From Actinomycetes bacterium (GTDB lineage: Bacteria > Actinomycetota > Acidimicrobiia > Acidimicrobiales > Ilumatobacteraceae): 49,521 nt of DNA. Location: NCBI GenBank assembly GCA_014190235.1, contig BJGC01000017.1, positions 1-49,521 on the forward strand, read 5' to 3'. Positions 45,745 to 49,521 of the stretch are shown here, in pieces. Each line of letters opens with the position of its first letter. Position 1 is the first letter of the stretch. The notes beneath the pieces are model-generated. The model was not told where the DNA came from. It ran no database searches and was given only the letters and a program-made list of their open reading frames with translations. Made by a program: the position numbers and the translations under genes.

Positions 45745-46475
45745 GCGACGAACTACTTGGTCGCACTGTTGTTGTCACACGAGCAGCCACCCAAAATAAA
45801 GAACTCACTGAACTTCTCACAGCACACGGTGCCAAAGTAGTTGAACTGCCACTTATTGCCATCGCAGAGCCACTTGATAATGGCCGCCAACGCGATGAAC
45901 TGCTACATCGTCTCAATGAGTTTGATTGGATTGTCGTGACATCGCCAAATGGTGCAGAACGCGTCGTCCCATTTCTTGCTCGTGCATCTGCGCCAAATAA
46001 TCGCAACGGTGTCACCAAAATTGCAGTAGTTGGTGAGGCAACTGCGCGAACACTAGGTCACGAATGTGACCTAGTCGCATCTCCTGCACGCGCAACACAA
46101 CTTGTTCAACAATTTCCGACAGGTTCTGGGAGCGTTCTACTTATGCAAGGAGATCTTGCGGACACAGAAGTTGCTGATGGACTCAGAAATCTTGGTTGGC
46201 ATGTCACATCTGTTGTCGCATATCGCACAACGCATGTGCGACCCAGCCGCGACAAGATGCTGCCCGCTCTTGCTGCAGACATCTTGTTATTGGCATCATC
46301 AAGTGCTGTCCTCGCGTGGTTCGATGTTTTTGGCGCATCAACTCCACCGATTGTGATCAGCCTCGGTCCGTCTACATCAAGTACTGCAATCGCGCGTGGA
46401 CTGAGCGTCACAACAACAGCATCCGAACAGAGCATGACAGCTTTCGTGCAGGCTGCAATAGACGCCTGTCAATAA
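45741..46475 (+). CDS. hemD: Uroporphyrinogen-III synthase
   Basis: 244 residues from TTG 45741, overlapping the hemC stop by 4 bases. Sequence is weakly conserved, as is normal for this family; FDWIVVTSPNGAERVVPFL, VGEATARTLG and LLLASSSAVLAWFD are typical. It inverts the D ring and closes the macrocycle. It is the last hem gene; the DGR begins 55 bases later. Confidence 0.88.
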   Translation: MSDELLGRTVVVTRAATQNKELTELLTAHGAKVVELPLIAIAEPLDNGRQRDELLHRLNEFDWIVVTSPNGAERVVPFLARASAPNNRNGVTKIAVVGEATARTLGHECDLVASPARATQLVQQFPTGSGSVLLMQGDLADTEVADGLRNLGWHVTSVVAYRTTHVRPSRDKMLPALAADILLLASSSAVLAWFDVFGASTPPIVISLGPSTSSTAIARGLSVTTTASEQSMTAFVQAAIDACQ

Positions 46476-46530
46476 GCACTACTGCGTAGAGTCATACGCC
46501 CCAAATAAGTACAATCTTTGCCATCTGGTC

Positions 46531-46558
46531 TTGCGGGGGGGGGTAGTGCTACTAGGGT
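46531..46558 (+). promoter_or_regulatory. Likely promoter of the DGR target gene, with a G9 tract in its spacer
   Basis: A -35-like TTGCGG at 46531-46536 and a -10-like TAGGGT at 46553-46558 are separated by 16 bases. Nine consecutive G (46535-46543) fill most of the left half of this spacer. The -10 box ends 6 bases before the ATG and there is no Shine-Dalgarno, so the mRNA is probably leaderless. Slippage in the G run would change the spacer length and thus promoter strength. Confidence 0.45.
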
Positions 46559-46564
46559 ACGGAC

Positions 46565-47521
46565 ATGTTCAAAACCAAGAAATCCCAGGTTCGTATCTGG
46601 TCGACTCATTTTGGGGCATTGATGCTGACCGCAGGTGTCATTGTCGGTATCGCAATTGGTGGTGTCGGAGGTGTCATCGCAGCATCATCAACGAAGTCAA
46701 AGATTGTGGCATGTGCCAATAAGACCACCGGAGCAATGAGATATTCCACGTCTGGAAGATGCACCAAAACCGAGACAAAAGTATCGTGGAATCTGGCTGG
46801 CACGAATGGCACTGCCGGAGCAAAAGGCGAGACAGGTGCTGCAGGTACGAACGGTACGAACGGCACGAACGCAACTCTGGCTATTACTCAACAGTCTGTG
46901 TGTGATGGAACCGATGCGGACGCCACTGCTAATGAGGTATGCAAGGTGGGTATGACTGGTCCTGGTGGTGGTCTTATTTTCTTTGTTGACTACAACGATG
47001 AATATGCAACCTATGACTATTTAGAGGCTGCACCTGCTGACGCTGCGTATGCCTCAAGTGCTACTACTGGCGCGTGGGCAACATCCGTGGCAAAGTGCGG
47101 AGCTGCACAATCAACTTCTTGTCTAACCGCCACTATTTACACGGAAACAGCCGTTGCGCTTGCAACAATCAAGGGGTTGCATCGAGGATTATTTGGTGGC
47201 AAGACAGCAACAGCTTCAATTGTTGCTCGTCACGACGCAGCGGCTCCGGCAGTAGCAAAGAATACCTATGCCGCTGGTGTTGCCGATGATTATGCAGTCA
47301 ATGGAAAGTCGGATTGGTGGTTGCCATCTAAAGATGAACTGGGAAAGATGCAAGAGAATCTGAACAATAAGGGTGTTGGTGGTTTTGCCGCTGACTCCTA
47401 TTGGAGTTCTTCTGAGAGCACCGCGGGCACCGCGTGGCGTCAGGATTTCAGCTTCGGGTCTCAGGGCCTCAACTACAAGACCGACGACAGCGCCTACGTG
47501 CGTCCAGTGCGGGCTTTTTGA
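46565..47521 (+). CDS. DGR target protein: membrane-anchored, collagen-like, C-type-lectin/DUF1566-like
   Basis: 318 residues. A basic N-terminus and a hydrophobic segment (about 17-41) act as a signal or anchor. A cysteine-bearing module (ACANKTTGAMRY to RCTKTETKVSWN, 49-76) leads into Gly-X-Y-like repeats (NGTAGAKGETGAAGTNGTNG, about 81-103), a combination common in bacterial surface collagen-like proteins. From about 113 a DUF1566/C-type-lectin-like domain follows (GPGGGLIFFVD; SDWWLPSKDELGKM at 249-262; SYWSSSES at 278-285; YVRPVRAF at the end). The last 47 residues are the variable region. In known DGRs such a fold displays randomised residues on a ligand-binding face. Ligand unknown. 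Confidence 0.88.
   Translation: MFKTKKSQVRIWSTHFGALMLTAGVIVGIAIGGVGGVIAASSTKSKIVACANKTTGAMRYSTSGRCTKTETKVSWNLAGTNGTAGAKGETGAAGTNGTNGTNATLAITQQSVCDGTDADATANEVCKVGMTGPGGGLIFFVDYNDEYATYDYLEAAPADAAYASSATTGAWATSVAKCGAAQSTSCLTATIYTETAVALATIKGLHRGLFGGKTATASIVARHDAAAPAVAKNTYAAGVADDYAVNGKSDWWLPSKDELGKMQENLNNKGVGGFAADSYWSSSESTAGTAWRQDFSFGSQGLNYKTDDSAYVRPVRAF
47371..47513 (+). repeat. DGR variable region (VR)
   Basis: 143 bases aligning without gaps to the template region at 48107-48249. There are 26 substitutions and all 26 fall on TR adenines (of 48 adenines); none of the 95 other positions differs. Eighteen of twenty A-rich codons are altered, giving S, S, T, G, T, R, D, S, F, S, G, L, Y, T, D, D, S and A; one AAC and one AAG are unchanged. 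The segment ends with the constant stretch TACGTGCGTCCAGTGCGGG, followed by C in VR against G in TR, the IMH/IMH* difference. In frame at the very end of the target gene. Confidence 0.95.
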
Positions 47522-47522
47522 T

Positions 47523-47552
47523 CTATTTTTCTATTTTTCTATTTTTCTATTT
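47523..47552. repeat. Short tandem repeat CTATTTTT x 3.75
   Basis: Three full units of CTATTTTT (47523-47530, 47531-47538, 47539-47546) and a partial fourth start one base after the target stop codon. The tract is nearly pure pyrimidine on the coding strand. It lies between the VR and the hairpins, so it may be slippage-prone and may help strand opening; that is inference. Confidence 0.85.
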
Positions 47553-47556
47553 AAAT

Positions 47557-47580
47557 TTTTTCTGCCGTCAGGCAGAAAAA
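47557..47580 (+). terminator. 10-bp hairpin downstream of the VR
   Basis: TTTTTCTGCC (47557-47566) pairs perfectly with GGCAGAAAAA (47571-47580) around the 4-base loop GTCA. It lies 44 bases after the VR. Characterised DGRs carry a hairpin/cruciform with a four-base loop just downstream of the VR that promotes retrohoming; this is the best candidate here. A run of T follows (47581-47587), so it could equally be an intrinsic terminator for the target gene. Confidence 0.6.
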
Positions 47581-47583
47581 TTT

Positions 47584-47605
47584 TTTTGAGAATTTAGTCT
47601 CAAAA
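47584..47605 (+). terminator. Second hairpin between target and avd
   Basis: TTTTGAGA (47584-47591) pairs with TCTCAAAA (47598-47605) around the loop ATTTAG. It is AU-rich and weak, lies directly after the 10-bp hairpin and before the avd ribosome binding site. It may fine-tune read-through from the target gene into avd. Confidence 0.4.
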
Positions 47606-47622
47606 CGATAAAAGGAGAATAT

Positions 47623-48003
47623 ATGCGATACGAAGAATTACCTGTTTTCCGAGATGTGCACGAATTGACTTTGAAAATATGTGATATGACTCAGAATTTC
47701 AGACGGGACTACAAGTACACCCTCGGCGAAGATATGAGGCGAGACTGCCTAAAGATGATGCGAGGTATTTACAAAGTCAACAGAGCTCGGGACAAAGCAC
47801 TGTATTTTGACGAGTTTCTCGATGATTTTGAGTTATTGAAAATGGAAGTTCGGATATGTGGAGATCTCAAGCTGCTGTCAGTCTCCCAACAGGGAAGCAT
47901 CATCGAGATGATGGATAAGATCGGTAAACAGATCAGGGGCTGGCGAAAATCTAGTCTCCTAGCCAGAGTTTCATCAGTTACGGCTGATGAGAGCGAGCAA
48001 TGA
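47623..48003 (+). CDS. avd: DGR accessory variability determinant (Avd), four-helix bundle
   Basis: 126 residues: a four-helix-bundle protein beginning YEELPVFRDVHELTLKICD, with FRRDYKYTLGEDMRRDCLKM and LKMEVRICGDLKLLS. This is the Avd family, related to the 23S rRNA intervening-sequence protein fold. Avd forms a basic pentamer that binds the TR RNA and the reverse transcriptase and is required for cDNA synthesis. AGGAG at 47613-47617 is 5 bases before the ATG. It lies between the target and the TR, the same order as in the Bordetella phage BPP-1 element. Confidence 0.9.
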   Translation: MRYEELPVFRDVHELTLKICDMTQNFRRDYKYTLGEDMRRDCLKMMRGIYKVNRARDKALYFDEFLDDFELLKMEVRICGDLKLLSVSQQGSIIEMMDKIGKQIRGWRKSSLLARVSSVTADESEQ

Positions 48004-48026
48004 TCGTGTTGAAAAGCGATAGGGGG

Positions 48027-48106
48027 ACTGCGGAGGTGTTACTACTTCGCAGTTGATTCGTGTGACATCCAGATGCCTGGGTGTCACCAAGACACCCCTA
48101 TGTCAC
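48027..48106 (+). ncRNA. Structured RNA directly upstream of the TR
   Basis: Two stem-loops. First: ACTGCGGAG (48027-48035) with CTTCGCAGT (48045-48053), one G-U pair. Second: outer stem GTGACAT (48062-48068) with ATGTCAC (48100-48106) enclosing GGGTGTC (48079-48085) and GACACCC (48091-48097) around ACCAA. The outer stem ends at 48106, one base before the first TR base. Such structure is expected for the non-coding DGR RNA that Avd and RT recognise; the folding is by eye. Confidence 0.6.
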
Positions 48107-48249
48107 GGGTGTTGGTGGTTTTGCCGCTGACAACTATTGGAGTTCTTCTGAGAACAACGCGAACAACGCGTGGAATCAGAATTTCAACAACGGGAATCAG
48201 AACAACAACAACAAGAACAACAACAACAACTACGTGCGTCCAGTGCGGG
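48107..48249 (+). repeat. DGR template region (TR), non-coding template RNA
   Basis: 143 bases matching the VR. It has 19 AAC/AAT codons and one AAG in the VR frame, including runs of four and five AAC. AAY codons randomised at both adenines reach 15 amino acids and no stop, the classic DGR design. TR RNA is reverse-transcribed with adenine-specific errors and the cDNA replaces the VR. An 8-base direct repeat CAGTGCGG (48241-48248 and 48255-48262) marks its 3' boundary. Open frames across it are not taken as genes. Confidence 0.95.
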
Positions 48250-48274
48250 GTTTTCAGTGCGGTATCGATCTGAG

Positions 48275-48302
48275 CACAGATGGGGGTGACGGCCCATCTG
48301 TG
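48275..48302 (+). ncRNA. Hairpin in the spacer between TR and RT gene
   Basis: CACAGATGGG (48275-48284) pairs perfectly with CCCATCTGTG (48293-48302) around GGTGACGG. It lies in the 87-base spacer between TR and the reverse transcriptase. In BPP-1 the corresponding spacer is part of the template RNA and holds the priming site for cDNA synthesis, so this hairpin is probably part of that RNA. Confidence 0.6.
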
Positions 48303-48336
48303 ATTTCGCTGTAATCAACAAAAATCTGGGGGACTG

Positions 48337-49521
48337 ATGGCAATATCGGTGGTTCAAAATAATTCAGTGGCTGAAGGGGTGACATTGACGGAGTTGCTAG
48401 AGGCCTATTACTCCTGTCGTCGTCATAAAAGAAATACGCATAATGCCCTGAAATTTGAAGTTGACTTTGAGCGGCATCTGATCTTGCTTCGAGACGAGAT
48501 TAATGCTGGCACATATCGGCCAGGCCGAAGCATTGCCTTTGTGGTTGATAAGCCAGTAAAAAGAGAAATCTTTGCTGCTGATTTTAGAGATCGAGTCGTG
48601 CATCATTTGATTATTAATAAACTGAACCCATTATTTGAGCGTGAATTTATTTACGACAGTTATGCCTGTCGAGTAGGGAAGGGAACATTATTCGGAGTTC
48701 ACAGGCTCGAGAGTTTCATCAGAAAGTGCTCACAAAATTACGCAACCGACTGCTATGTACTCAAGCTCGATATCCGAGGTTTCTTTATGCACATTAATGT
48801 AGATCTGTTGTTCGATCGGCTATCAATTTTTATAGAGCATAAGTACGCAGGTCGAGACAAGGAGATGCTTGTTGAGTTGTGTCGGATAGTGCTACTCAAT
48901 AAGCCGAGTGAGAACTGCACTATCAAGGGAAGTCGCAGTGACTGGAACGGACTTCCTCGGGACAAGAGTCTCTTCTATGCGCCGAAAAACTGTGGTTTAC
49001 CAATTGGGAATTTAAGCAGTCAAGTATTTGCAAATTTTTATATGAATCTCTTTGATCACTTTGTCAAAAGTAAATTACAAGTTCGTTTCTATGGACGCTA
49101 CGTCGACGATTTTGTGCTCGTGCATTCTGACAAAGAGTACCTAAGATCTCTGATTCCAATTCTGCGAAAATTCCTACTTGACGAGTTGGCGCTTGATCTT
49201 CATCCCAAGAAAATCACATTGCAGCATTACTCACACGGAGTCCCTTTTTTGGGGGCAATCATTAAGCCTCACCGAACATATGTAGGGCGACGAACTAAAG
49301 GAAACTTCTATTCCTCTATTCAGAAACACAACGAGATTATTGCAACCCGTCAACCCGATCTCACAGAACAAAGGGCATTTATTTCAAGCATGAACTCTTA
49401 CTTGGGGGTGATGGGGCACTATCGCACCCAACGGCTACGACGGTCAATGATCCGACGCCATGTTCGAGGGTGGTGGAAATACGCCTACCTCAATGGTGGA
49501 ATCAATAAATTTACGCTGAAA
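48337..49521 (+). CDS. DGR reverse transcriptase, cut by the window end
   Basis: 395 residues are visible and the frame is still open at 49521. Group II intron-like RT motifs: VKREIFAADFRDRVVHH (about 74-90), LDIRGFF with catalytic Asp145 (144-150), GLPIGNLSSQVFANFYM (220-236; the (I/V/L)GxxxSQ of DGR RTs, where other RTs have QG), GRYVDDFVL with YVDD at 255-258, and VPFLGAIIKPH. No maturase or endonuclease domain is seen in the visible part. GGGGGA at 48328-48333 precedes the ATG. It writes the mutagenised cDNA from the TR RNA with Avd. Confidence 0.93.
   Translation, partial: MAISVVQNNSVAEGVTLTELLEAYYSCRRHKRNTHNALKFEVDFERHLILLRDEINAGTYRPGRSIAFVVDKPVKREIFAADFRDRVVHHLIINKLNPLFEREFIYDSYACRVGKGTLFGVHRLESFIRKCSQNYATDCYVLKLDIRGFFMHINVDLLFDRLSIFIEHKYAGRDKEMLVELCRIVLLNKPSENCTIKGSRSDWNGLPRDKSLFYAPKNCGLPIGNLSSQVFANFYMNLFDHFVKSKLQVRFYGRYVDDFVLVHSDKEYLRSLIPILRKFLLDELALDLHPKKITLQHYSHGVPFLGAIIKPHRTYVGRRTKGNFYSSIQKHNEIIATRQPDLTEQRAFISSMNSYLGVMGHYRTQRLRRSMIRRHVRGWWKYAYLNGGINKFTLK

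Follow-up and report, generated by a model that had tools for sequence, protein, structure and literature searches.

Among the described diversity-generating retroelements (DGRs), that of Bordetella phage BPP-1 (NC_005357) is built of a target gene, avd, a template repeat (TR) and a reverse transcriptase (RT) gene in the order mtd-avd-TR-brt, exchanges sequence adenine-specifically between the TR and the variable repeat (VR) of its target, and has a hairpin after the VR. The same four parts in the same order, adenine-specific exchange and a hairpin after the VR are found in the DNA described here, contig C17 (BJGC01000017.1) of GenBank assembly GCA_014190235.1, a 2.02-Mb draft genome (G000) of the family Ilumatobacteraceae; the whole contig of 49,521 nucleotides is called the window. 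The host is a freshwater actinobacterium, and the window DGR differs from that of BPP-1 in being chromosomal, within a hem gene cluster, in having an Lcl_C surface protein as its target, in serving a remote target and in carrying a tract of nine Gs (G9). Its hairpin loop is GTCA, against the phage consensus GRNA, and its T-rich spacer has 36 nt, against a phage range of 4–34 bp (PMC3240598). The parts, the adenine-only exchange, the recurrence of that exchange in a remote target and across two related genomes, a covarying RNA stem, the hairpin and the G9 tract are all read from sequence, and we hold with high confidence that the locus represents a chromosomal DGR diversifying membrane-anchored surface proteins of this bacterium.

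Surveys place Actinobacteria among the main DGR phyla, with DUF1566 the commonest Pfam domain of DGR targets and several targets for some DGRs (PMC6642488); Actinobacteria made up 5.2% of the hits in another survey (PMC3521204), and in a third most cellular targets look membrane-anchored, while remote targets escape its method (PMC8144416). DGRs with DUF1566/Lcl_C targets (PMC6642488, PMC8144416; in Bacteroides phages, PMC8143477) share with the window system the target domain, the C-terminal VR, membrane-anchored cellular targets and the service of several targets; the window system differs from them in the poly-G before its targets and in dispersed targets that can be tracked across the genus, with scars and orphan VRs. 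A single DGR likewise serves targets elsewhere in the genome in cyanobacteria, where the remote targets are mostly predicted to be cytosolic (PMC7517822), whereas those of the window genome have N-terminal hydrophobic anchors, as judged by eye. The literature already covers DUF1566 targets, remote targets and actinobacterial DGRs. A sequence-only reading of the window had called such an element little described, a claim weakened by the presence of Actinobacteria (PMC3521204, PMC6642488) and DUF1566 (PMC6642488) in published surveys; 'diversity-generating retroelement' together with 'Acidimicrobi' returned no paper from the open-access literature. A second target on another contig, the hairpin as a DGR part and the G9 tract go beyond that reading.

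Parts of the element and its two targets

From position 46565 to the window end the + strand carries the target gene, avd, the TR and the RT gene. The features are as follows.

46535 to 46543, + strand: G9 tract, separated from the target ATG by 21 nt; proposed to be a promoter element prone to slippage
46565 to 47521, + strand: target gene, 318 amino acids, with a hydrophobic N-terminal segment (anchor judged by eye), collagen-like repeats and a C-terminal Lcl_C domain (Pfam)
47371 to 47518, + strand: VR
47495 to 47518, + strand: invariant VR 3' end, resembling an initiation of mutagenic homing (IMH) site
47557 to 47580, + strand: hairpin of 10 pairs with loop GTCA, 3' of the TCTATTTT repeat; likely target-site hairpin, also terminator-like
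47623 to 48003, + strand: avd, 126 amino acids
47969 to 47992, + strand: RNA stem of 10 pairs with covariation, where avd ends; presumably the 5' portion of a DGR RNA
48107 to 48254, + strand: TR, with 48 adenines and 19 Asn codons in the VR frame
48337 to 49521, + strand: RT gene, 395 of 397 codons in the window, the rest on contig C23
45741 to 46475, + strand: hemD (HEM4; Pfam PF02602, 8e-39), left neighbour

The sequence-only reading had proposed the order target(VR)-avd-TR-RT, a VR at the target 3' end rewritten at template adenines, an Avd and a DGR-type RT with the motif GLPIGNLSSQ, and all four were borne out. TR and VR align over 148 nt without gaps, and 26 of their 27 mismatches fall at TR adenines (hypergeometric chance ~1e-14), comprising 12 A>G, 8 A>C and 6 A>T changes. 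The sole mismatch elsewhere is a G>C near the 3' end (47514), a fixed G/C difference common to all 13 VR 3' ends aligned. A difference of this kind between VR and TR ends (IMH/IMH*) is a known feature of BPP-1. The VR reaches the stop codon of the target and its invariant 3' end departs slightly from the TR, an arrangement by which DGRs are recognized. First or second codon positions account for 47 of the 48 TR adenines, most of these in the 19 Asn codons; many residues can therefore change, yet a stop could arise in a single codon only. By computation, this template could yield about 10^27.7 protein sequences. The TR/VR pairs of related loci are biased in the same way, for example with 24 mismatches at A and 1 other in locus L002, 23 and 1 in L006, and 30 and 2 in genome G168.

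The RT exceeds the RVT_1 cut-off (69.8 against 29.6 bits), and its CGLPIGNLSSQ is the counterpart of VGIPIGSLTSQ in BPP-1. RTs of the DGR clade have an (L/I)G..SQ motif in place of SP. An RT outside that clade would speak against a DGR; in a tree of 18 RTs, for which the annotated BPP-1 gene was used and L010 and L018 were dropped, the window RT stands with BPP-1 Brt and other DGR RTs, and two group II intron RTs split off at 100/100. Its nearest relative is the RT of G168, from another genus of the same family (96/86), followed by that of G020 (100/98). A first tree, built with an over-long BPP-1 frame and since replaced, set BPP-1 next to the group II RTs with little support (63/7); the RTs of L006, L007, L011, L012, L015, L017, L019 and L020 and the G005 fragment are in neither tree. 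In the PDB the window RT comes closest to 8ub7 ('Reverse transcriptase', 7e-32), which we take to be the BPP-1 enzyme, and among PHROGs to 1423 (6e-95). RT matches occur in 4 of 221 genomes of the family, the window's own included, and the RTs of three Bacteroidota loci from freshwater-type samples (L005, L006 and L008) are 64–68% identical to it. The product of avd passes the Pfam cut-off for bAvd (PF22296, 59.2 against 40 bits) and matches PHROG 3206, Avd (8e-20). As a side observation, a G11 run lies within a DGR-type RT frame of a Nanoarchaeota locus (L011, 6432–6442), after which the RT resumes in another frame, through either a frame switch or an assembly error.

A C-type lectin fold is expected of DGR target domains; here the C-terminal domain of the target matches Lcl_C (PF07603, 40.1 bits, cut-off 34.9), formerly named DUF1566, and in PDB profiles HbP1 (8q4e, 2.6e-15). 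The collagen-like repeats of the sequence-only reading can be made out as Gly-rich triplets; the collagen match itself is weak, at 17.2 bits below a cut-off of 27.2. The Legionella Lcl adhesin also combines collagen-like repeats with an Lcl_C domain, but identity with that type of adhesin was ruled out by 36.1 bits to NF046116, whose equivalog cut-off is 500. The targets would be displayed at the surface, where they may bind ligands.

Searching G000 with the TR gave two strong matches apart from the TR itself and the window VR. The match on contig C3 is a true VR, with 28 of 30 mismatches at A (P ~1e-15), and ends a 291-residue paralogue of the window target; it is a remote target of the kind that a metagenome survey says its method misses (PMC8144416). 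The match on C31 was rejected as a clean VR (mismatches at A 22/44 by MAFFT, 21/37 by BLAST); A sites are still over-represented there (P 9e-4), and the copy is perhaps a drifted former target. An Lcl_C gene on C14 was likewise rejected, with 28 of 69 mismatches at A.

The C3 target has a counterpart in G031 (contig C13), at 92% DNA identity over 3.8 kb. A comparison of VRs, suggested with the sequence-only reading for reads or strains of one species and made here between related genomes, yielded differences nearly all at template adenines: the two VRs differ at 26 of 46 TR-A sites and at 2 of 98 other sites (P 5e-14), whereas the rest of the target differs by 12–13% and the adjoining sigma gene by 4%. 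Measured against the flanking gene, the VR is thus better conserved at non-A sites and far more divergent at A sites, which is the pattern expected of repeated copying from a shared template, and the concentration at A sites suggests that rewriting took place after the two diverged.

Several points tell against an active DGR of this kind. The avd product stays short of the NCBIfam Avd cut-off (53.5 against 80 bits), and the structure predicted for the target domain from a six-row alignment had a mean predicted local distance difference test score of 32 and was discarded. Upstream of the G031:C13 target lies hemD, hence it is no clean orthologue of the C3 target, and activity is judged from two related genomes with one VR in each. 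The G031 locus (L137, 1844–5447) has the order hemC-hemD-target-sigma and so joins the two G000 target loci, hem on C17 and sigma on C3. Paralogous targets may have recombined, or the join may have been made in assembly.

By analogy with the BPP-1 family, an RNA spanning the avd end, the TR and the spacer would be reverse-transcribed by RT and Avd with errors at adenines, and the complementary DNA would replace the VR at the 3' end of both the adjacent and the remote C3 target. The invariant VR 3' end and the hairpin behind it would mark the target site, and slippage of the G9 tract may turn target expression on or off.

To the left of the DGR lie hemA, hemC and hemD. The last 127 nt of C17 are the first 127 nt of C23, on which the RT, running off the window, is completed (397 amino acids, stop at C23:136), and hemB starts at C23:148, 11 nt past that stop, so that the cassette sits between hemD and hemB. 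No phage gene was seen adjoining the DGR, the hem neighbours being those compared with Pfam. A serine recombinase gene (PF00239) lies directly 3' of the RT of one Bacteroidota DGR (L008, 7283–7945) and offers a possible route of transfer.

The G tract ahead of the targets

A G9 run sits 21 nt 5' of the ATG in both G000 targets, and these are the only G9/C9 runs on the G000 contigs. Among the DGR-proximal targets of the RT clade, all six with upstream DNA available, from two phyla, have a tract of G9 to G11 (G9 in G000, G11 in L002/G020, G10 in G168, G10 in L005, G11 in L006 and G10 in L008; L003 has no target and is outside this count), at 6 to 48 nt from the start codon, that of G168 being uncertain. 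Outside the clade, none of 10 DGR targets has a G or C run longer than 4 within -150 to +60 (Fisher P 1e-4, with rows that are not independent). A run of at least 8 occurs in just two (L238 and L247) of 69 viral loci, 67 of which came from the BPP-1 search, and that of L238 lies inside a gene, ~150 nt before the next gene. Targets that are remote or additional vary in this respect: the tract is present at G000:C3, G031:C13 and G006:C38, and missing at G020:C103, G020:C49, two targets of G025 and the type-2 genes of G031.

Our preferred reading, on which confidence is evenly divided, is that the G9 tract is a phase-variable promoter element that may switch target expression by slipped-strand mispairing. 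The likeness to homopolymer phase-variable genes, a G run of 8–11 close 5' of a surface-protein gene, is one of working and not of membership. Two points count against a switch: the number of G9/C9 runs is ordinary for the genome size (~1.8 expected by a chain model, 15.7 by independent bases), so that by the chain model only their place is unusual, and a strict promoter scan of 46400–48400 found no sigma-70-like site.

The tract may instead be no switch at all, and rather an inherited promoter feature, a protein-binding site, a cassette boundary or a length that is partly an assembly artefact, an alternative that falls only a little short of an even claim. In G000 the two promoters with the tract are copies and therefore count as one event, and L005, L006 and L008 are close kin, so that independent origins are few; some remote targets lack the tract as listed above. 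Against this, a mutable tract has been kept at 8, 9, 10 or 11 Gs among relatives, in several sequence surroundings and two phyla, and the near-identical promoters of L005 and L006 differ in having 10 and 11 Gs.

Most DGR variants are presumably useless or harmful. If the tract is a phase-variable switch, it would allow a cell to shut off a harmful variant while retaining a useful one, and would help to explain how a free-living bacterium tolerates constant rewriting. It is conceivable, with grounds about equally weighted on either side, that the RT clade as a whole, in freshwater Actinomycetota and Bacteroidota, combines adenine rewriting of the binding tip with poly-G on/off control, one RT serving dispersed targets and orphan targets outliving a lost RT.

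By open-access literature searches, the poly-G tract is a new, undescribed part. The terms 'homopolymer' and 'phase-variable' are absent from the available main text of ten DGR papers (PMC8144416, PMC10907252, PMC8867640, PMC10053308, PMC6642488, PMC4891356, PMC7517822, PMC11792537, PMC3521204 and PMC12875486), two of which use 'phase variation', in both cases of the host of BPP-1. A search of the open-access literature joining DGR with phase variation, homopolymeric and slipped-strand gave no paper with the DGR term among the 12 of 515 matches listed.

A poly-C at the TR start of four related viral contigs (L013–L016; C8, C9, C9 and C10, against C6 in the three VRs for which the start is available) was rejected as a promoter-type tract; it belongs to the TR/VR homology and was left out of the count. 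Viral scans with a Bacteroidota promoter pattern and with a VR pattern gave no matches, and a scan with a gut-phage RT found no relative.

Hairpin behind the VR and RNA stem at the avd end

A hairpin or cruciform after the VR characterizes a subset of DGRs. Behind the A-specific VRs of the genus come a T-rich repeat and then a hairpin, whose outer stem varies in sequence by group with pairing kept. Its loop reads GTCA, GCCA, ATCA or GTTA among members of the window's group and has three bases in G005 and G020. No exception was seen among VR copies with at most 5% non-A mismatches, counting the two folds of G005. With one mismatch allowed, the motif TTTCTGCCNNNAGGCAGAAA occurs at 2 places in G000, both immediately 3' of an A-specific VR, at 5 in G031 and at 4 in G006. 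Nine of these 11 places lie directly 3' of a VR copy, one is at a contig start and one is on G006:C27. This last, a lone hairpin (L177, contig positions 52–71) at the position of the G000:C3 target, is probably the scar of a deleted target.

That the hairpin is a transcription terminator only, with no role in homing, is unlikely. It does score as an intrinsic terminator in the window, and it may serve both as terminator and as homing element; against a terminator alone stands the placement of the motif right behind VR copies, and in BPP-1 a hairpin of this kind is required for homing (PMC3240598). VR copies without a hairpin also carry more non-A mismatches (median 0.090, n=7) than those with one (0.027, n=14; P 0.0015), in a grouping made partly by eye and with groups that are not independent; automatic assignment set 11 copies with a hairpin against 10 lacking one (P 0.0025). 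The automatic finder missed G005:C4, G005:C49 and G006:C55, which do fold, and G006:C51, found by pattern search, and took an off-motif stem in G025:C140. A match of the hairpin to Rfam RAGATH-32 (27.8 bits, gathering score 41.8) was set aside as a chance likeness of paired hairpins, and no paper was found under that name.

The stem at the avd end is paired in all 60 cells of its alignment of six related sequences, two of which (L005 and L008) are nearly identical, and six of its pairs are changed on both sides. Shifting the partners by up to 3 columns leaves at most 73% paired, and of 500 shuffles none matches the percentage paired or the doubly changed cells, and 35 match the doubly changed pairs. 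Rfam RT-7 overlaps the stem below threshold (23.7 against 116.8 bits) and is kept as a hint. In Pseudomonas phage Cruim01 (L175, 1226–1418) the interval separating the RT from a gene in the avd position contains a misc_RNA with the label RT-15, so that the RT-n RNAs may be DGR RNAs.

The cassette within the genus

TR-like DNA was found at E <=0.001 in 14 of 32 genomes of the genus, several matches being short, and VR copies with mainly A-site mismatches in G000, G005, G006, G020 and G031. Compared with the TR of their own genome, the three G020 VRs show one non-A mismatch each. The RT protein occurs in three of the 32 (G000, G020 and G005), in G005 as a fragment only (residues 191–394). In G006 the 153-nt hemD-hemB spacer (L045, G006:C72, ~1348–1500) joins the target start to the final RT codons, so that a cassette was formerly present and then deleted, and we rejected it as an empty site. 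In G005 hemD is followed by a spacer and directly by hemB, without a cassette, which looks like a pre-insertion state or a clean loss. No RT was found in G031, a genome 82% complete.

It is very improbable that the window element is itself a relic in decay, with a VR that has long ceased to be rewritten: losses are common nearby (the G005 fragment, the G006 scar) and the RT was not found in 28 of the 32 genomes, many of them incomplete (the exceptions being G000, G005, G020 and the G006 scar), but the frames of RT, avd and target are open, non-A sites of the window VR match the TR at 99 of 100, and the non-A sites of the C3 and G031:C13 VRs are more alike than the rest of those targets, as fresh copying leaves.

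Within the genus, an intact cassette, an RT fragment, a deletion scar, orphan targets and targets that have or lack the hairpin form a natural series that may reveal rules of retrohoming. Its targets have at least two N-terminal types, one collagen-like and one starting MNQFLSNK. A second surface-protein family with VR-like C-termini, mostly with the MNQFLSNK start, is found in G031 on contigs C3, C16, C37, C59, C60, C110 and C125.

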